Source of the DNA: Planctomycetaceae bacterium
GTDB taxonomy: Bacteria > Planctomycetota > Planctomycetia > Pirellulales > UBA1268
Length of the DNA stretch: 35,335 nucleotides
Reading direction: 5' to 3'
Assembly: GCA_947459185.1 (NCBI GenBank)
Contig: CANHCU010000030.1
Coordinates: forward strand, 1-35,335
Positions 5,618 through 14,673 of the stretch are shown here, piece after piece (position 1 is the stretch's first letter; each line of letters starts with the position of its first letter). A model generated the notes under the pieces. It did not search any database, was not told the DNA's origin, and saw only the letters and a program-made list of their open reading frames with translations. Both the position numbers and the translations under genes were made by a program.

Positions 5618-5688
5618 TGCCCGATGGTGTAACGGTAGCACAAGGGATTTTGGTTCCCTTTGTCTAGGTTCGAATCCTAGTCGGGCAA
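5618..5688 (+). tRNA. tRNA-Gln (anticodon TTG)
   Basis: TGCCCGA...TCGGGCA 7-bp acceptor stem; anticodon arm AGGGA-TTTTGGT-TCCCT; T-arm CTAGG-TTCGAAT-CCTAG; CCA not encoded. Confidence 0.96.
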
Positions 5689-7527
5689 TTGCGCCGCTCG
5701 CTCCAGGGCTGCCACCGTGAACGCCAGCGGATAGAGTTCCTCGTCGTACCAGAGTTGTGCGAAGTAGAGGCCGATGGGGGCGGCGGGGAAACGTGTGCCC
5801 GCGTCCGTGTGTTCCAGCAGCCACGCCACGCCGGAGGCGACGGCGTCGGTCGCCCGGCTGCGGAGCGTCGGATCTCGCGACTCCGCCGCCACGCGGGCCA
5901 ACGCTTCGACGGTGAGTGCCGTCTCCTCGATCGATGGCGTCAGCCCCGGGCCTCCCCCCACGCCGCCGTCGGCTCCCATCGATGCCAAAAGCCACTCAGC
6001 GCCCCGTCGGTCGAGCGTGGCCAGCACCACCCGCGCCGTGCCGTAAGTCGGGTTTGCCTGTGCGACATGATGCTCGTTGCCAAACCAGAGCGGACACCAA
6101 GAGCCATCGGCGGACTGTGCATTCAGCAGATACCGCCGCGCGGAGGCGAGCATGCGTTGCCGCGAGGGAGCCTCACCACGGTTGAGGCTCTCCGCGCCGG
6201 TTGCAAACGGCGACCAGCACTCTGCCGCCCGCAGCGCGTGCGCCGTGATGTCGGGGCACGACGTGTCGAACGGCAGCCGGCCCCAGCCGCGGCAGAATGT
6301 TGGCAGACCGCCGTCGCGGTTGGCGAGCTTCGCCAGCCAGTCGAGCCCAGCATCGGCCGCCTGCCGCACCTCGTCGGCAGGCACGCAGGCCTCCGCCGCT
6401 TCGAGCTGCGCCAGGGCGACGACGGCGCCGCTGGTATCGTCGGCATCGGGAACGCCGCCGGGCAGATCGGTCCACGCCCAGCCGCCGGCCGCGGCGCCGG
6501 TGTACGGATGCACGCGATTCCATTGCTGGCCAAGCAGCCAGCGGCGGATCGCCTCCCGCTCGCGCCGCCCGAGATGCTCCGCGAGACGGCCGCCGGCGGC
6601 GAGCGCCGCCACCGACTGCGTCGTCACCCAGGTGGCGAGGTTCGTGTCGATCGGCCACGAGCCGTCCAGCCGCTGCGACTGCGTCAGAAAAGCCACGCCT
6701 TCGCGGGCCACCGTGTGCGTGGCGAGTCCCATACCGGCGAGGCTCATCGTCACGAACGAAGTCAGCGGTGTCGCCTCCAGATAGCCGCCGTTGTCGGGCT
6801 GGATCGCCGCCAGCGTGCGGAGCGTCGGCTCGCGGGCGGCGTCGCGGATTGGCTTCAAGACACCCCAGCCCGGTGCGGCCGCATGTCGCACCTGCCCGAT
6901 GGCGATGAGCGCGGGGAGCGCGTAGCTCACCACCTGCATGTTGACCAGCCGAAACCAGGCCTGCGGCAACGCCGCCAGTTCGAACGGCAGCTGCGGGATG
7001 AAACGCCATGTCTCGGCCGCTCGCGGATCGCCGAATCGACCGCAGAGCGCGATGTGCGTGAGGATCGGAACGCTGAACGTGCGGTCACGGCCATAGATGG
7101 CCGCCAGCGCTGTCGCAATCGCGGTGGGTTCGAGACTGCCGGCATTCTCGCGAATCCAGGCTGTAGCCCGCTCGAACGCGGCCGTCATGCCGTCGCCGCT
7201 GGTGCGGCCGTCGGCCACTGCCCCGAGTGCCGCCCAGCAAAGAAGCGTCGTGGAGAGGTTGCCCTTGCTAGCCACGGTGTCGCCCCAGCTGCCGTCGGCC
7301 AGTTGCGTGGCCACGAGCCACTGCACACCAGCCTCGATCCGCGCAGCATGGGCACTCGAATCAACGAGTCGCAGGGCGTTGATCGCCGTCGCCGTAGAGA
7401 GCGCGCTCGACGAGAGTCTCCCGATCCAGTGACCGGCGGCCGTCCGGCGGTCGAGCAGCGCGGCCACGGCCGCGCGACGGGCGGCGTGGAAGGCGTCGGA
7501 GGCGAGGATGGAGGGGGAAGAGGCCAT
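5677..7527 (-). CDS. Squalene-hopene cyclase-family terpenoid cyclase
   Basis: Catalytic DXDD-type motif 'PDADDTSGAVVAL'; multiple QW-type repeats 'QLADGSWGDT', 'QRLDGSWPIDTN', 'QSADGSWCPLWFGNEH'; about 616 aa, typical of the family. Confidence 0.88.
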   Translation of the reverse strand: MASSPSILASDAFHAARRAAVAALLDRRTAAGHWIGRLSSSALSTATAINALRLVDSSAHAARIEAGVQWLVATQLADGSWGDTVASKGNLSTTLLCWAALGAVADGRTSGDGMTAAFERATAWIRENAGSLEPTAIATALAAIYGRDRTFSVPILTHIALCGRFGDPRAAETWRFIPQLPFELAALPQAWFRLVNMQVVSYALPALIAIGQVRHAAAPGWGVLKPIRDAAREPTLRTLAAIQPDNGGYLEATPLTSFVTMSLAGMGLATHTVAREGVAFLTQSQRLDGSWPIDTNLATWVTTQSVAALAAGGRLAEHLGRREREAIRRWLLGQQWNRVHPYTGAAAGGWAWTDLPGGVPDADDTSGAVVALAQLEAAEACVPADEVRQAADAGLDWLAKLANRDGGLPTFCRGWGRLPFDTSCPDITAHALRAAECWSPFATGAESLNRGEAPSRQRMLASARRYLLNAQSADGSWCPLWFGNEHHVAQANPTYGTARVVLATLDRRGAEWLLASMGADGGVGGGPGLTPSIEETALTVEALARVAAESRDPTLRSRATDAVASGVAWLLEHTDAGTRFPAAPIGLYFAQLWYDEELYPLAFTVAALERAAQLPD

Positions 7528-7628: not shown

Positions 7629-8537
7629 TCACACACTGCAATGGCCGAGGGCGACCAGCCCGTAGAACGTGTATTCCGCATCGGGCTCGTCGTCAGCCCA
7701 TGAACCGTGGAAGGCGCCTTCGGCCGTCCAGAGCGTGTCGAGAAAATCGAGCATGCTGTCGCGATGCTCCCGCCATGGCACCTCCAGGGCGTCAAGCGCA
7801 TGGAGTGCGACGGCGGTTGAAAGCAGGTCGGGGATCGGTGCGTCGGGAGCGGCGGTAAACCCGCCCGCCGGATGACGCCGTGCCAGGAGCCACTCGTCAG
7901 CCCCGATTGGGGCGGCCCGTCCGAGCGAGCGGAGCGTGGCGATCGCGGCCGCAGTTGCCGTCGTGGAGCCCTCCGGCTGGTCACCAGAATTCGACCAGCC
8001 GCCGTCGGCGGCGCGGAGCGAGAGCACGCAGGCCGCCAGCTGTTCGGCCTCTGAACCGGATTCGGGGAGCGGCTGCTTCAGATCGGCGCGGGCGTTCATC
8101 GCAAGAAAGCATCCGTAGGCGGTGCCGCGGGCTGCGCCGGCGCGGGAGTTATAGCCACCGTCGGCCGCGCGGTGACGCTCGACGCCGGCGAGCAGGGCCG
8201 CGCGATGTTCCGCAGGCAAGGCATCCGTCGGCTGGGATGCCCAGGCTCGCGCCAGGCAGCAGCGGTGCACGTAGTCGAGCCTGCTGCCGTCGCCAAACGC
8301 ATCGAGATAGCAGCGGGTCGCCGCGGCCTGCTCGTTGCCAGCAGGCAGGGCCTCGAGAGCCAGCAGCGCATCGAGCGCAAACGACGTGTAGTAGAGATCG
8401 GGTCGGCCGCCGCGATTGCAGTAGCCACCACCGGGCGTCGCGAGCGACTGGAGAAACGACACCACGAGTTCAGTCGCCTCGCCGAGCGTCCGCCGGGCGA
8501 GGCGGGCCACCTGCAGCATCTGCAGCCGCTGGCTCAT
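7629..8537 (-). CDS. Prenyltransferase/squalene-oxidase repeat protein, RabGGTase/FTase-beta-like
   Basis: Alpha/alpha-toroid repeats 'GGYCNRGGRPDLYYTSFALDALLAL', 'ADGGYNSRAGAARGTAYGCFLAM', 'ADGGWSNSG', 'GGFTAAPDAPIPDLLSTAVALHAL', 'DAEYTFYGLVALG'. Confidence 0.85.
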   Translation of the reverse strand: MSQRLQMLQVARLARRTLGEATELVVSFLQSLATPGGGYCNRGGRPDLYYTSFALDALLALEALPAGNEQAAATRCYLDAFGDGSRLDYVHRCCLARAWASQPTDALPAEHRAALLAGVERHRAADGGYNSRAGAARGTAYGCFLAMNARADLKQPLPESGSEAEQLAACVLSLRAADGGWSNSGDQPEGSTTATAAAIATLRSLGRAAPIGADEWLLARRHPAGGFTAAPDAPIPDLLSTAVALHALDALEVPWREHRDSMLDFLDTLWTAEGAFHGSWADDEPDAEYTFYGLVALGHCSV

Positions 8538-10336
8538 GCCGTTGCAGCCGGGCTTGCGGCGGCCGACTGCGGTTCGCCGTGGTGCTCGCGAGCCACCTTC
8601 GCCTCCTGCTCCCGGCAGTAGCCCTCGAAGGTGAGTTCGTTGAACATCTTCGCCAGCACCCGCCGCAGCAGCCCCTTCAACGTGGCGTCGGAGAGGCCCT
8701 CGAGGGCCCGCACGGCCTGCTCCTTGTAGCTTTCAAGAAGGAGCGCCGCCTTCTCGTCGGCCTTGGCCGTGCGGATCGCCTCTCGCAGGCGGTCGGGCGT
8801 GGCTGCGGGGTGGGGCTTCCCCGCCGTGATGGCGGCGAGCATCTCGCGGTCATCGCCGCGGGCCCGTTCGGCGGCGAGGGCGAGGACGACACTCGGCCGC
8901 GACTCGACGTTGCTCACAAGCCCAGCGTCATCGAGCATGTCTTCGAGGTCATCCTTGATCTGGTAGGCGATGCCCACCGCCTCGCTGTAAGCCCGCAAGG
9001 CATCGGACACCTCGTCCGCCCGGCCGGCGCCGATGGCAGCCAGTTGCAGCGCCACGTCGAACGCGGGCGATGTCTTGAGCCGGAAGATCTCCAGCACCTG
9101 GCGGCTGGCCAACTGCGAGGGATTGCGGCTCCAGGCGAGTTCGGCACCCTGCCCCTGACAGAGCAGACGCTGCGCACCGGCGGCCTCGCGAACGGCGGCG
9201 CGGATGCGATCGGCATCAAGGCCTGACTCCGCCAGCAAACGATAGCCCTCGCCGATCAGCAGGTCGCCCACGTTGAGTGCAATCGGCACGCCGTGCGCTC
9301 CGCAGAGCGTCGGCTCGCCATACCGTTCCAAATCGCCGTCCTCGATGTCGTCGTGGACGAGCGACGCCTTGTGGAAGCATTCCACCGCCACGGCGATCCG
9401 CTGGATCGCATCGATCGACCGTTGGTCGTGATCGGTGTGCTCAGCGTCGTTCTCGCCACCGTCACCCGGCCGCAGCGCCTGGAACACTGCCGCAGCCAGA
9501 AAGGGCCGCCACCGTCGGCCGCCGACGGCCAGCCACTCCCGGCCGATCTCCTCTGCATGGCCCACCGGCGGCCCCATCAGCCGATCGAGCGCCGGCCGTT
9601 CGAACCACGTCTTCACGGTGTCGTGCAGGCCGCCAAGATCGAGCCGACGCGACCGGTCGGCCGCCTCGAGGTGGATGTAGTCCCAGACCCAGTCCACATC
9701 GACCGTCGTATCGATGCAGTCGTCCTGCAACAGCGGCACGGCCACAGCAGGAATCGCCGCCGCTTGCACGTGCGAAAATGTTTTTTCAAGCACCGCCATG
9801 CAGCTCACGCCGACGATTGCCTCGATCGTACCGGTCTGCACCATCGCCATCACCAGTGCCGAGCCTTCGGCCACGAGCACCGCGTAGCCAAGCCGCTCGG
9901 CCTCCGCCTGAAAATCCTGGATCGAGCAGAGGCCGCACTGTTTGCAGAGCAGGCCGAATTCGTCGAAGGGCGCCGGGCAGCGGTTCTCCACCCGCAGGCA
10001 CTTGGGCATGAGCAGGAGCCGGCGCTCGAAGGGCACGGCAGCGAGGGCGTCGCGCCACGACTCGTTATTGACCGTGACGACCGCGTAATCGAGATACGTC
10101 TCGGGGAGCCCCGCCTCGGCGAGCGCGGCGGTCGCCCGCCGACGGAGTTCCTCCATGCCCAGTGGAGGCACGGCACGGTCATGGGTCATCCCGCGACGCA
10201 CGGCATCGCGGAGGGAATCGCGATCCGCCTTCGTCGGGGGAATGCCGGCCTGCGGCGGCCGCGACCGGATCACCGCTGGCGGCACCGGTGGCGGTAGGAT
10301 CGCAAGCGCAATCGTCGCTGGGTCTACGGTGGACAT
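8534..10336 (-). CDS. DUF116 domain plus polyprenyl diphosphate synthase fusion protein
   Basis: Start chosen at internal ATG (MSTVDPATIALAI...) in ORF 8534-10579. N-terminal Cys-rich DUF116-like 'MPKCLRVENRCPAPFDEFGLLCKQCGLCSIQDF'; C-terminal 'GGRRWRPFLAAAVF', FARM 'SLVHDDIEDGDL', SARM 'AYQIKDDLEDMLDD'. Confidence 0.9.
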   Translation of the reverse strand: MSTVDPATIALAILPPPVPPAVIRSRPPQAGIPPTKADRDSLRDAVRRGMTHDRAVPPLGMEELRRRATAALAEAGLPETYLDYAVVTVNNESWRDALAAVPFERRLLLMPKCLRVENRCPAPFDEFGLLCKQCGLCSIQDFQAEAERLGYAVLVAEGSALVMAMVQTGTIEAIVGVSCMAVLEKTFSHVQAAAIPAVAVPLLQDDCIDTTVDVDWVWDYIHLEAADRSRRLDLGGLHDTVKTWFERPALDRLMGPPVGHAEEIGREWLAVGGRRWRPFLAAAVFQALRPGDGGENDAEHTDHDQRSIDAIQRIAVAVECFHKASLVHDDIEDGDLERYGEPTLCGAHGVPIALNVGDLLIGEGYRLLAESGLDADRIRAAVREAAGAQRLLCQGQGAELAWSRNPSQLASRQVLEIFRLKTSPAFDVALQLAAIGAGRADEVSDALRAYSEAVGIAYQIKDDLEDMLDDAGLVSNVESRPSVVLALAAERARGDDREMLAAITAGKPHPAATPDRLREAIRTAKADEKAALLLESYKEQAVRALEGLSDATLKGLLRRVLAKMFNELTFEGYCREQEAKVAREHHGEPQSAAASPAATA

Positions 10337-10388: not shown

Positions 10389-11303
10389 TCAGGCCGTCCC
10401 ACCCGCATCAGCAGCTCCAGCCGCCTCTTTCGCGGCAGAAGCCCGGGCAGCTGCCGCCTCGACCCGCCGCTGAATCTCCTCGGGAGATGGCAGGGCATCG
10501 AGCACCTCGCGGGGGATCTGCGCCGCGTCTGCGAGCTTTGTGAGGCACCGCCGCCGTTCGGCCAACGCCTGATCGGCACTCCGCTCCTTGGAGAACCTGG
10601 TCTTGGCGTCGGCGCTCCGCTCCCTGAGCTTGGCGTAGATGTCGCCGCCGAGGAGCGCGGAGATGTCGACCTTCATCTTCTCGCGGTGAATGTCCGATTC
10701 CGCCACCGGGCCGCCGTCGATCGGGCCCGCGTGATACTTCGGAAACATGATCGCCACCTCGGGGCAGACCCGCGAGCAGGCTGGGCAGTTGACCTTGCAG
10801 TTAGCCGGGTTCTCGACACGCAGCGTGTGGTCGGTCGCCACGCCGTACACGTCGAACAGGCAGAAGCTCAGGCACTGCATGCAGTTGGTGCACCGAGCCG
10901 TGTCGATCACCGGAAACCACGGCTTCCACGTCTCGGCTGTGTTGGCGATCGGTCCGTTGGCGACGGCAGACGCCTCCGGCGGCCGGTTCATCCGCCGCTC
11001 GCCCCGGGCCTCTTCGACAGCGGCGACGGTCTCGCCGACCGACAGCCCCGTGACGTCGCGAATCGTCACGTCACACCGTCCACTGGCATCACCCACTACG
11101 GGCGGCCCGTCAGAAAAACAGCCGATCACGATCATCGCGCCGCCGGCCTGGAGGTCGGCCGCGGCCGCCCCGGCCCGCGTGACGGCATACCCGCGGTCGA
11201 GAAGCGCTGCAAAGATGCTGGCTCGGTCGGTGGCGGGCAGCGGTGTGGCACCCGCACCCTCGTAGACGACCACCCGCGGCGGAAGCAACGCTTCAGCGAT
11301 CAT
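10389..11303 (-). CDS. 4Fe-4S ferredoxin-type protein
   Basis: 'DTARCTNCMQCLSFCLFDVYGV' and 'NCKVNCPACSRVCPEVAIMFPKY' cluster motifs. Confidence 0.88.
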   Translation of the reverse strand: MIAEALLPPRVVVYEGAGATPLPATDRASIFAALLDRGYAVTRAGAAAADLQAGGAMIVIGCFSDGPPVVGDASGRCDVTIRDVTGLSVGETVAAVEEARGERRMNRPPEASAVANGPIANTAETWKPWFPVIDTARCTNCMQCLSFCLFDVYGVATDHTLRVENPANCKVNCPACSRVCPEVAIMFPKYHAGPIDGGPVAESDIHREKMKVDISALLGGDIYAKLRERSADAKTRFSKERSADQALAERRRCLTKLADAAQIPREVLDALPSPEEIQRRVEAAAARASAAKEAAGAADAGGTA

Positions 11304-11692
11304 GATCGGGCTCCGTCGGGAACCGCGAGCCCGCCGGCCAGCACGGCCTCCGCGGTGTCGGTCCGCATGTTGAGGATCTCCACGCCCTGCTTCGGCAGCG
11401 GTGCATCGGCGAGGGCGAAGAGCCCCTGCACGGCCCGGGGCCAGCAGGCGAATATCCTGAGCGGACGATCGCCACGGGCCAGTTCTGCCAGGTGCGGATC
11501 GCGACGGGCGGCCATCTCGCAGAGATCGGGCACCATTTCAAAGCCACGGCCAGCCGCCGCGAGGCCCTCGAGCACGGCATCCTTGACGGCGGCCGGTACC
11601 ACCTGTGCATACGCGCAGCGGCAATAGAGGATCCGCGTGCTGTCGTCGGCCGGCATGGCGGCCGTTGCTGCCTGTGGTTGTGGCTCGGTCAT
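11300..11692 (-). CDS. Small conserved-looking Cys-containing protein, unknown function
   Basis: MTEPQPQAATAAMPADDSTRILYCRCAYAQVVPAAVKDAVLEGL...MVPDLCEMAARRD...LRIFACWPRAVQGLFALAD...; ATGA overlaps with both neighbours. This start fits better than the 331-aa ORF, which overlaps the radical SAM gene. Confidence 0.78.
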   Translation of the reverse strand: MTEPQPQAATAAMPADDSTRILYCRCAYAQVVPAAVKDAVLEGLAAAGRGFEMVPDLCEMAARRDPHLAELARGDRPLRIFACWPRAVQGLFALADAPLPKQGVEILNMRTDTAEAVLAGGLAVPDGARS

Positions 11693-12903
11693 GGGTGGAT
11701 CCTTCCCGCCGCCGGATACGTACCGAAGTCGTTGAACCAATACCGCTTCGCAAAACGATACATCCAGTGCTTTTCCGGAATCTCGCGGCCCGGGAGATCC
11801 TGGCTCGACCGGGGCGTCATCGCCAGCAGCTCCTGGCGGGCGGTGCCACGCTGGGTCGTGTCGTGCGCCCCGTGGCGGTCGGCGATCTCGAGGATCAGAC
11901 GCGGATTCTCGAGCACCACGCAGCCGCGGCTGTGGCTGGCTGCCGCGTCGCGCATGTCTTTCAAAAACGCCGACTGCGTCACCTGCTCGTAGAACGATCC
12001 CGTGCCGACCTGTTCTACCGCCAGTTGGATGATCGGGCAGGGTTCGATGCCGCCCGACGGGCCGACATGGTGCGTGAGGCCGACCGCCATCGGGCAGAGC
12101 GCGTCTCCCTTGTCGTCGTAGTAGGCGTCGACAATCGCGATCGGGAGCCTCGCCCGCTGTTCCACCACGAACTGTCTCACGCGGACGAGCTGGTCGGGCG
12201 TGAGCGCCAGTTCCGGCGACGCCTCCGGGCCGACCGGGCGATAGCCATGAAACCAGGCGTAGTGCACGCCCAGGTCGATCAGCCGCCGGAGCCACTCCTC
12301 GGTGAGCATCGTGTCGATGTTGGAGCGGCAGAGGCTTGTGGCCACGCCCGTGATCAGTCGAGCCTCGAGGCAGAGTTCGAGGCCACGGAGCGAACGGCTG
12401 AGCACCTGACGGTTGCCGCGGCGGATGTCGCTCGTCGCCGCGTCACCCTCGATGCTCACCAGCGGCGTGGCGTTGCCGAGAGCCTGGAGGCGGCGGGCCA
12501 CCTCGGGCGTGATCAGCTGGCCGTTGGTGAAGATCTGGAAGTAGCAGTCGGGGTGGGCGGCCAGCAGGTCGAGTAGCCGCGGGTGGAGGAATGGTTCGCC
12601 ACCGAGCAGTCCGAAGAACACGTTGCCGTGCGCCTTCGCGTCACGGACGAGTGCATCGAGCGTCTCGAACGGAACCATCGTCCGGGGCGCCTGGACGTCA
12701 ACCCAACAGCCCTGGCACTTGAGGTTGCAGGAGTTGATGATCGAGAGATGGAGAAACGGCGGGAAGACGACTCCGCGACGCTGTCTCGCCTTGAATTTCT
12801 CGACGGCGATCAGCCCCTTCACGCCGAAATTCCAGCCGAATTTCCAGAGGCAGTTGGGCGCCACCGACGACAGCATGTGGCCGGCCATCCGGGGGAGGAT
12901 CAT
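11689..12903 (-). CDS. Radical SAM protein with C-terminal Cys-containing region
   Basis: CxxxCxxC 'INSCNLKCQGCWVD', 'FGLLGGEPFLHPRLLDLL', 'FTNGQLI', C-terminal 'CPMAVGLTHHVGPSGGIEPCPIIQ'. Confidence 0.92.
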   Translation of the reverse strand: MILPRMAGHMLSSVAPNCLWKFGWNFGVKGLIAVEKFKARQRRGVVFPPFLHLSIINSCNLKCQGCWVDVQAPRTMVPFETLDALVRDAKAHGNVFFGLLGGEPFLHPRLLDLLAAHPDCYFQIFTNGQLITPEVARRLQALGNATPLVSIEGDAATSDIRRGNRQVLSRSLRGLELCLEARLITGVATSLCRSNIDTMLTEEWLRRLIDLGVHYAWFHGYRPVGPEASPELALTPDQLVRVRQFVVEQRARLPIAIVDAYYDDKGDALCPMAVGLTHHVGPSGGIEPCPIIQLAVEQVGTGSFYEQVTQSAFLKDMRDAAASHSRGCVVLENPRLILEIADRHGAHDTTQRGTARQELLAMTPRSSQDLPGREIPEKHWMYRFAKRYWFNDFGTYPAAGRIHP

Positions 12904-13000: not shown

Positions 13001-14116
13001 TTATACCCGCGAGGGGATCCGGTGGGTGGGCACGGGCCGGCCCGGGCGGAAGTGTTCGAGATGGATGACCTCGTGGGGCACGTTTGCCGCCGCGGCCGAC
13101 ACCGCCGCCCGTACCGCCCGCTCGAGGTCTGCCGGGTCGGCCTCGGCCCGCAGGTTCACAAGCAGCCGGCCGATATCCACCGGCTCAGCGAGCCGGTGGG
13201 AGAGGTGGGCCGAGTCGGCGGTGCGAACGAGATTCGCGGCGGCGAGTTCGTAGGGATCCCCCTCGATCGCGAGCGTGCCCTTGAGATGCGCGATTTCGTG
13301 GCCGCTGGCGGCAAGTGCCTCGCGGATCTGCGAAAGGATCGCCACGAGCAGTTCGTTGCCGTCAAACTCAGCCGCATCAGCCGCCCCGATCCGCACTTCG
13401 GCATTGAGCCAGCCGAGCAGCGACTCTCCGAGTGCGTAGCGGTCGTAATCGATCTCGGCAATCGCCGCGGCCTGTGATGTGTCGGCCAGCAGCCGAGCAA
13501 ACCACGGCTCGAGGCCCGTGCCATCGCGGGCCGAGCATTCGAGGACGGATGCCCGCGGGTTCACCGCCGCGAAAGCTGCCCGCAGTCGTTCGAGTCGCGG
13601 GGCATCAACGAGGTCGCACTTGTTGATGACGATGATCTCCGCCTCTTCCAACTGCTTGCGATAGATGTAGCCAACGTGTTCGGAGAGCTTCGCGTCGGCG
13701 AGCCCCAGCACCCGTTCGGCCCGCAGCGGATCGACGACCACGCTCATCGGGGCCACGGTGAACCGGTCGCTGTAGATCTGCTCCAGTGGCAGAGTCACTG
13801 TCGCCACAAGGTCGGTGCAGCTGCCCACCGGCTCGGCGATCAGCACGTCGGGCGCGGTCTCCCGCACCAGCGACTCGGCCGCCTCGACCAGCGACGTGAA
13901 CCGGCAGCAGAAGCAGCCGCCCACGATCTCCTCGACGGGCATCCGGTGGGCCGCGGCGAGCGCCGTATCGACGAGCCCTCCACCCTGATCGTTTGTGACC
14001 AGTCCCACGCGGAGGCCACGGGCGGTGAGCCAGTCGGCCAGCCGCAGGATCGACGTTGTCTTGCCGGCCCCGAGAAAGCCGCCAACCATGATGTATCGGG
14101 CTGTCGCGACGGTCAT
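13001..14116 (-). CDS. CobW/HypB/UreG-family (COG0523-like) GTPase
   Basis: Walker A 'GGFLGAGKTTSILRL', metal motif 'GGCFCC', 'INKCD' (NKxD). Confidence 0.92.
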   Translation of the reverse strand: MTVATARYIMVGGFLGAGKTTSILRLADWLTARGLRVGLVTNDQGGGLVDTALAAAHRMPVEEIVGGCFCCRFTSLVEAAESLVRETAPDVLIAEPVGSCTDLVATVTLPLEQIYSDRFTVAPMSVVVDPLRAERVLGLADAKLSEHVGYIYRKQLEEAEIIVINKCDLVDAPRLERLRAAFAAVNPRASVLECSARDGTGLEPWFARLLADTSQAAAIAEIDYDRYALGESLLGWLNAEVRIGAADAAEFDGNELLVAILSQIREALAASGHEIAHLKGTLAIEGDPYELAAANLVRTADSAHLSHRLAEPVDIGRLLVNLRAEADPADLERAVRAAVSAAAANVPHEVIHLEHFRPGRPVPTHRIPSRV

Positions 14117-14673
14117 ACATCGTCTCCCGGTTCAGACTCGTCAGATGGGGCGGGCATCTCACCAGCATGCCCGTCGCCATCACTATAGCGGGAGGCCTGC
14201 AGCTGATTGATCGTCGCGGTGAGCAGCGCGATGTAGCCGTGGACGTCGAGATGGCCCGGCGTGGGCGTGCCCTGCACAGCATAGAGCCAGCCGGCGCCGT
14301 AGGGGTCGGAATGCGTGAGGCAGGCTTCGGCGGTGAGCGCCGGATTGGACGACTGCAGCGTCCCATCGACCACGCAGAAGAGTTCGCTTACCGCCTTGAA
14401 GCCCTCGACGGTGCCGAGCCGCTCGCCGCCGGCGACGGTCTGGCCCGGCTTCACCTCCAGCACCATCTCCACCAGTTCGCCGAGCATCCGCGTGGCGAAC
14501 TTCGTGAAGCCGACGTGCCAGAGCCGCGGCGTGTCGCCGCGAGCGTCGCGAGTTCCCGCGTCGTCGATGGGCCCGCCATCCGCGGGCCGCATCCAGAAAT
14601 GCGACGGAGTGTAGAGGCAGTCCACGGGGAACCGCGCCGAAAAGTGGGCATGCCGAAAGCGGACGGTTTCCAT
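14113..14673 (-). CDS. GcvH-like lipoyl-carrier protein
   Basis: 'LWHVGFTKFATRMLGELVEMVLEVKPGQTVAGGERLGTVEGFKAVSELFCVVDGTLQSSNPAL...DPYGAGWLYAV', matching the GcvH fold with the lipoyl Lys retained (EGFKAVSEL); ATGA overlap with the CobW gene. Confidence 0.85.
   Translation of the reverse strand: METVRFRHAHFSARFPVDCLYTPSHFWMRPADGGPIDDAGTRDARGDTPRLWHVGFTKFATRMLGELVEMVLEVKPGQTVAGGERLGTVEGFKAVSELFCVVDGTLQSSNPALTAEACLTHSDPYGAGWLYAVQGTPTPGHLDVHGYIALLTATINQLQASRYSDGDGHAGEMPAPSDESEPGDDV

Follow-up and report, generated by a model that had tools for sequence, protein, structure and literature searches.

The window, that is, the whole 35,335-nucleotide stretch of DNA analysed here (contig CANHCU010000030.1 of a Planctomycetaceae bacterium), harbors a conserved operon with a gene in which a DUF116 domain is fused to a trans-polyprenyl diphosphate synthase. 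This fusion may catalyse the first committed step of an unnamed but conserved reductive pathway whose end product is a cyclised polyprenoid, DUF116 being the Fe-S electron port, a reading to which we assign a probability of about one half.

The fusion gene and its operon

Eight minus-strand genes lie in the order GcvH-like, CobW GTPase, radical SAM, HdrA-N-like, ferredoxin, fusion, torA and torB, with 4-base overlaps at four of the junctions:

14113–14673 (−): GcvH-like lipoyl-carrier protein (PF01597, 59.3 bits; lipoyl-Lys motif VEGFKA kept)
13001–14116 (−): CobW-type GTPase (PF02492, 92.7 bits)
11689–12903 (−): radical SAM protein (PF04055, 55 bits; CNLKCQGC motif; operon orthologues)
11300–11692 (−): 130-aa HdrA-N-like protein (CxC...DLC...ACxxRAV; four invariant Cys in nine homologues)
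10389–11303 (−): 304-aa protein with a 4Fe-4S ferredoxin domain at about residues 130–186 (operon orthologues)
8534–10336 (−): DUF116::trans-polyprenyl diphosphate synthase fusion (Pfam PF01976 and PF00348; full-length orthologues; AF2 match to prenyl synthases)
9677–10114 (−): DUF116 domain of the fusion, residues 75–220 (seven invariant Cys)
8819–9550 (−): polyprenyl synthase domain of the fusion, residues 263–506 (FARM DDIED 329–333, SARM DDLED 462–466)
7629–8537 (−): torA, 302-aa single alpha-alpha toroid (Prenyltrans PF00432; 4-base overlap with the fusion)
5677–7527 (−): torB, 616-aa SHC-like class II terpene cyclase (PF13243/PF13249 above cut-off; PDADDT, i.e. DxDD)

The fusion is a single ORF of 600 aa that starts with the ATG at 10336 and whose stop ends at 8534. 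The preliminary description, which had already read it as one ORF joining DUF116 to a trans-polyprenyl synthase, was exact in its coordinates, and both domains lie far above their Pfam cut-offs (DUF116: E 1.5e-36, 125.6 bits against 25; polyprenyl_synt: E 2.8e-35, 122.2 bits against 27); no further domain was found in the Pfam scan of the protein. An ORF begun at the alternative GTG at 10579 would be longer but overrun the upstream ferredoxin gene, and the alignment of the orthologues begins at the ATG. Full-length orthologues are present in all four other species sampled from the genus (91–96% identical) and in many other genera, those of the same family being 72–83% identical; the fusion is therefore real, and an assembly artefact was ruled out. 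Since three further PF00348 proteins are encoded in the source genome, it is not the housekeeping synthase.

The synthase half retains the FARM, SARM (DDLED), KT, Q and RP residues. It aligns with E. coli IspB at a probability of 99.6% (hhalign), and its AF2 model (pLDDT 82.5) matched GGPP and octaprenyl-PP synthases with E values down to 4e-11. None of the NCBIfam prenyl synthase equivalogs was reached, the best being the family 2 encapsulin cargo polyprenyl transferase (108.8 of 450 bits). The synthase had been called complete, which holds for the motifs just listed and has to be qualified elsewhere: the RRG that follows the FARM is replaced by RYG in the fusions (64/64 relatives in which the pattern was located), GGKR is replaced by GGRR in the window's synthase half, and in the window's fusion the loop that follows the SARM, which carries a Lys in IspB (GKNVGDDLNEGK), is shorter and Lys-less. 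RRG, GGKR and the post-SARM Lys are accessory substrate-binding residues and do not define the PF00348 family.

The FARM of the fusion (HDDIED) has no two-residue insertion and is preceded by Ser at position −4 and Ala at position −5. As proposed earlier, these positions are non-aromatic and the insertion is missing, a state that recurs in 71/71 relatives, with Ser at −4 and Ala or Ser at −5 in every fusion protein. By the classical −4/−5 chain-length rule, the absence of both an aromatic residue and a FARM insertion goes with products of C20 or longer, although the rule does not tell eukaryote-type GGPP synthases apart from C30–C40 synthases. The earlier prediction of C20 or longer is indeed what the rule yields, and the predicted product could, by the rule, be anything from C20 to C40. 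The best solved relative of the fusion by sequence, the GGPP synthase of P. horikoshii, has Tyr at −5.

In the DUF116 half, an alignment of 26 domains from Planctomycetota, Verrucomicrobiota, Lentisphaerota, Kiritimatiellota and Bacteroidota revealed seven invariant Cys (residues 113, 120, 131, 134, 137, 179 and 207 of the window's fusion), and the Cys motif quoted in the preliminary description is present here. DUF116 was previously reported to contain at least six Cys including CxxCxxC, and both a flavodoxin-like fold and a role in electron transfer were proposed for it (Makarova et al. 2015, PMC5898192). The domain model shows alternating alpha/beta elements (pLDDT 83.7), in line with that proposed fold, and a fold search with it against solved structures gave no confident match. 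Judging by the Cys pattern alone, the domain probably carries an Fe-S cluster. Standalone DUF116 genes in other planctomycetes (L157:4482-7309, L160:4536-5934, L159:4496-5951 and L162:4074-6964) directly follow fmt (methionyl-tRNA formyltransferase), with rsmB next in two loci. Because a standalone copy sits between fmt and rsmB, the general role of DUF116 need not involve isoprenoids, and its interpretation as an isoprenoid-specific domain was discarded.

Several of the remaining operon proteins are of Fe-S type. The 130-aa protein, which we take to resemble the N-terminal domain of HdrA, has no Pfam match; the 304-aa protein falls slightly below the cut-offs of the Fer4 models, shows weak PorD/HgcB-like matches and matched no solved structure. 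The radical SAM protein is related to NirJ/AhbC/ScmF-type enzymes and was assigned to no NCBIfam equivalog, while PADLOC returned a generic viperin-like resemblance and nothing further. The CobW GTPase is conserved in the planctomycete/verrucomicrobial version of the operon, and the lipoyl-Lys motif of the GcvH-like protein was located in 15/16 relatives. In torA, the Cys/His positions that serve as zinc ligands in protein prenyltransferases are not conserved. TorB combines the double toroid of class II terpene cyclases (PF13243, PF13249) with their DxDD motif, the PDxDDT sequence being invariant in 47/47 relatives, and scores below both SHC cut-offs, with 51.9 of 431 bits for TIGR01507 and 72.2 of 322.7 bits for TIGR01787. 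Promoter and terminator signal in the window was no greater than chance. At the edge of the window, a protein cut by the contig end (3–1175, minus strand) is composed of repeated Cys-containing units of the YTVCKPVYETxTKEIP type.

Distribution, ancestry and cysteine state

The gene set of the window, order included, recurs in related genera, and its core (HdrA-N-like/ferredoxin, radical SAM, fusion, torA and torB) is shared with Planctomycetota, Verrucomicrobiota, Lentisphaerota and Bacteroidales at large. Of the best 80 matches in a scan of 84,980 species genomes, about 43 were fusion loci, distributed over Planctomycetota, Verrucomicrobiota, Lentisphaerota, Kiritimatiellota and Bacteroidota; the Bacteroidota carriers among these 80 matches were Parabacteroides sp., Tannerella sp., rumen Bacteroidaceae and Prolixibacteraceae. 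The survey suggested in the preliminary description thus places the fusion, in many cases at full length, in several phyla. DUF116 proteins of fusion size were found in 57/246 sampled Planctomycetota genomes, in about 25/141 genomes of the class of the Prosthecobacter-type genome and in about 11/198 of the order of the rumen Bacteroidaceae genome. One contig titled Candidatus Kuenenia stuttgartiensis (CAMBSN010000147.1, locus L067) contains the same operon as the window, its proteins being 94% identical, and probably comes from a MAG that is mislabelled or mixed.

A single protein combines the HdrA-N-like and ferredoxin domains in Bacteroidales. Several of the operons there have as neighbours PQQ-type propellers, a Tat-signal NHL-like propeller, a Tat-signal polyferredoxin and a NapH/NosR-like membrane ferredoxin (L087:12611-18571, L079:7465-13522, L099:14110-19810 and L086:262-6355), and L086 additionally encodes a NuoF-like protein; together these flanking genes look like an undescribed periplasmic electron chain. 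In many planctomycetes, a 180-aa family (L047:10029-10571 and 11 relatives) lies directly 3′ of the fusion. It belongs to no Pfam family and weakly resembles chorismate lyase (UbiC/Rv2949c), which points to a possible 4-hydroxybenzoate link: one of 12 members gave a sub-threshold match to PF01947 (E 0.005), and the hhalign comparison with UbiC was likewise weak (E 1e-4, probability 58%), with the Arg and Glu positions aligned and conserved.

The source genome encodes a second DUF116-like::PPS protein (G000:C72), which is Cys-poor and received no Pfam DUF116 call. Its locus (L035, G000:C72:1-18000, genes between 302 and 12101) contains a true SHC (PF13243, 428 bits), a HemN-like radical SAM gene, a two-component pair, an AP_endonuc_2 protein and, unusually placed in a hopanoid-type locus, QueE- and QueF-like genes; an SQS_PSY gene lies farther along the contig at C72:19905. 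In the phylogenetic tree this paralogue falls within a Pirellulales/Gemmatales clade and the window's copy nests beside Verrucomicrobiota (support 83–98%), a placement that points to acquisition of the window's operon by horizontal transfer.

Among Planctomycetota, the fusion and torB occurred together in 54/246 genomes, with three exceptions in each direction (Fisher p ~8e-47, a value that ignores relatedness); in at least one exception, genome G156, a DUF116 fragment adjoins torB on the same contig. Linkage was counted only where a fusion locus had 3 kb or more on each side, and partners were scored within 8 kb. Fusions that bear the DUF116 Cys had torB nearby in 38/40 loci, ferredoxin and torA in 25/40 each, and radical SAM in 22/40, torB being beyond reach in the two remaining loci (L071 and L085). 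At all 15 loci with Cys-less fusions, torB, torA, radical SAM, ferredoxin, HdrA-N, GcvH and CobW were absent within the same distance. The DUF116 cysteines persist only in loci with Fe-S-type partners. On the fusion tree, three changes of Cys state were counted, at least two of them on strongly supported branches, so that the concordance between Cys and partners rests on about three events rather than on 55 independent ones. The Cys-less natural fusions keep the synthase motifs, which suggests that the cluster is rather not needed for chain building, and the two kinds of fusion constitute a ready natural experiment.

Proposed pathway and rival readings

We infer the chain length, Fe-S cluster, electron path, reductive step and product of the pathway as follows. 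The synthase half would build a C20+ diphosphate by condensing IPP onto an allylic starter, and this chain, or a dephosphorylated or reduced derivative of it, would be protonated and cyclised by torB, with torA as its partner toroid. Electrons would pass from the ferredoxin/HdrA-N-like pair to the Fe-S cluster of DUF116, which could drive a reductive step on the new allylic chain, for example loss of the diphosphate, IspH-like in kind. The radical SAM enzyme would modify the skeleton, and CobW and the GcvH-like carrier would be accessory in some lineages. In favour of this model are the 4-base overlaps, the multi-phylum core, the torB linkage and the Fe-S partners that follow the same split, the co-occurrence with torB in 54/246 planctomycete genomes, the invariant DxDDT, the intact FARM, SARM and KT, the seven invariant Cys and the 7/12 Bacteroidales/Lentisphaerota genomes in which no SQS_PSY protein was detected. 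Against it stand the presence of radical SAM in only 22/40 and of ferredoxin in only 25/40 Cys-bearing loci within 8 kb, the few tree changes behind the Cys concordance, the two Cys-bearing loci out of reach of torB, the standalone DUF116 between fmt and rsmB and the DUF116 model that matched no solved structure with confidence. The reductive step is the least certain part and is, taken by itself, doubtful: DUF116 would either act on the chain in this way or supply electrons to the radical SAM enzyme.

The latter option leads to a different reading, in which DUF116 is an electron-transfer module for the radical SAM or another operon protein, the fusion merely co-localises the pathway, and an ordinary C20+ synthase feeds a torB that cyclises without any redox step on the diphosphate. 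This is possible, though we do not expect it: Cys state does track the Fe-S partners while the Cys-less fusions keep their synthase motifs, and electron transfer is what was proposed for DUF116 in 2015 (PMC5898192), but the closer companion of the Cys-bearing fusions is torB (38/40) rather than radical SAM (22/40), so that DUF116 tracks the cyclase better, with the proviso that distance may hide unlinked copies. The preliminary description had instead inferred from the metal-cluster domain either redox control or channelling. Its metal/redox component agrees with an operon whose products include a 4Fe-4S ferredoxin, a radical SAM enzyme and a CxC/C/C HdrA-N-like protein, and with the retention of the DUF116 cysteines solely beside such partners; no evidence was found for channelling, and redox control is the least supported version of the DUF116 role, since Cys-less natural fusions retain the PPS motifs. 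Allosteric regulation of the synthase by redox or Fe-S sensing, to which the physical fusion with a catalytic domain and the invariant Cys of a Cys-rich domain might point, is thus improbable: it leaves the loss of Cys together with specific partner genes unexplained, and no evidence of regulation was found.

Two readings place the fusion in established pathways. Attachment of the chain to an aromatic acid, as in a ubiquinone-like or other prenylated aromatic pathway, would accommodate the chorismate-lyase-like gene that follows the fusion in 14/40 Cys-bearing and 13/15 Cys-less loci and that weakly resembles UbiC/PF01947 with aligned Arg and Glu positions. That resemblance is sub-threshold, however, neither the window's operon nor the Bacteroidales version contains the gene, and there is no UbiA gene in the operon, the three UbiA copies of the genome being unlinked; this reading is accordingly quite improbable. 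Ordinary hopanoid biosynthesis, with the fusion supplying FPP for squalene and torB as a diverged squalene-hopene cyclase, is more improbable still. TorB is of SHC type, SQS_PSY proteins are encoded in the source genome and the Cys-less paralogue lies near a true SHC, but torB misses every SHC cut-off, a true SHC is elsewhere in the genome and Ala at −5 is not of the FPP type. Moreover, no SQS_PSY protein was detected in 7/12 sampled Bacteroidales/Lentisphaerota genomes with fusion-type DUF116, for which genome completeness is not given; squalene is therefore an unlikely substrate there, and torB of these groups probably does not use it. A simple hopanoid locus was thus ruled out for the window on the missed cut-offs, a true SHC elsewhere and the SQS_PSY-less carriers.

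Relation to known systems and implications

The reductive pathway proposed above has partial counterparts among known systems. Archaeal-type GGPP synthases and bacterial long-chain synthases (1wy0 and IspB) have the fold, the FARM DDxxD, the SARM and KT in common with the fusion, whereas the N-terminal DUF116, RYG for RRG, GGRR and the Lys-less post-SARM loop belong to the fusion, and 1wy0 has Tyr at −5 where the fusion has Ala. The hpn (squalene-hopene cyclase) loci combine, like the window's operon, a prenyl synthase, a double-toroid class II cyclase and a radical SAM enzyme, in their case HpnH. However, torB and the radical SAM protein of the window are far below the SHC/HpnH cut-offs or unmatched, and its operon is without a squalene synthase and has Fe-S proteins, a GcvH-like protein and CobW added. 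IspH (LytB), which catalyses Fe-S-dependent reduction of an allylic diphosphate, serves only as a model of how DUF116 might work: the fusion has no sequence match and the DUF116 model no fold match to it, and it is not a member of that family.

The fusion itself has been known since 2015, when the same combination of domains was named in one sentence for Psta_0175 of Pirellula staleyi, a member of the same phylum (Makarova et al. 2015, PMC5898192); operon, cyclase, Cys loss and distribution were not analysed in that report. The operon is the more important part, which the preliminary description had missed, and its conservation, its link to the cyclase and the pattern of Cys loss seem to be new: searches of the open-access literature turned up no paper about it, most subscription papers and preprints lying outside the search, and a planctomycete paper on terpenoid clusters says merely that they hold 'polyprenyl synthetases or ... 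terpene cyclases'. In Akkermansia muciniphila, the adjacent 'terpene cyclase/mutase' genes AMUC_RS06010/06015 are slightly bile-induced and were read as hopanoid genes (PMC7671984); they may be torA/torB of the same operon type.

Should the proposed pathway be correct, a class of isoprenoid membrane compounds of planctomycetes, verrucomicrobia and gut/rumen Bacteroidales would have escaped notice or been classed as 'hopanoid', and a testable role for DUF116 would be gained. A bolder version, in which the cyclised polyprenoid is possibly redox-active or tied to the periplasmic Fe-S/PQQ-propeller chain of gut Bacteroidales and DUF116 reduces a prenyl diphosphate as a second enzyme type beside IspH, is unlikely. 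Culturable carriers exist among Rhodopirellula species, Prosthecobacter-type bacteria and Parabacteroides relatives, which makes gene deletion combined with lipidomics feasible.
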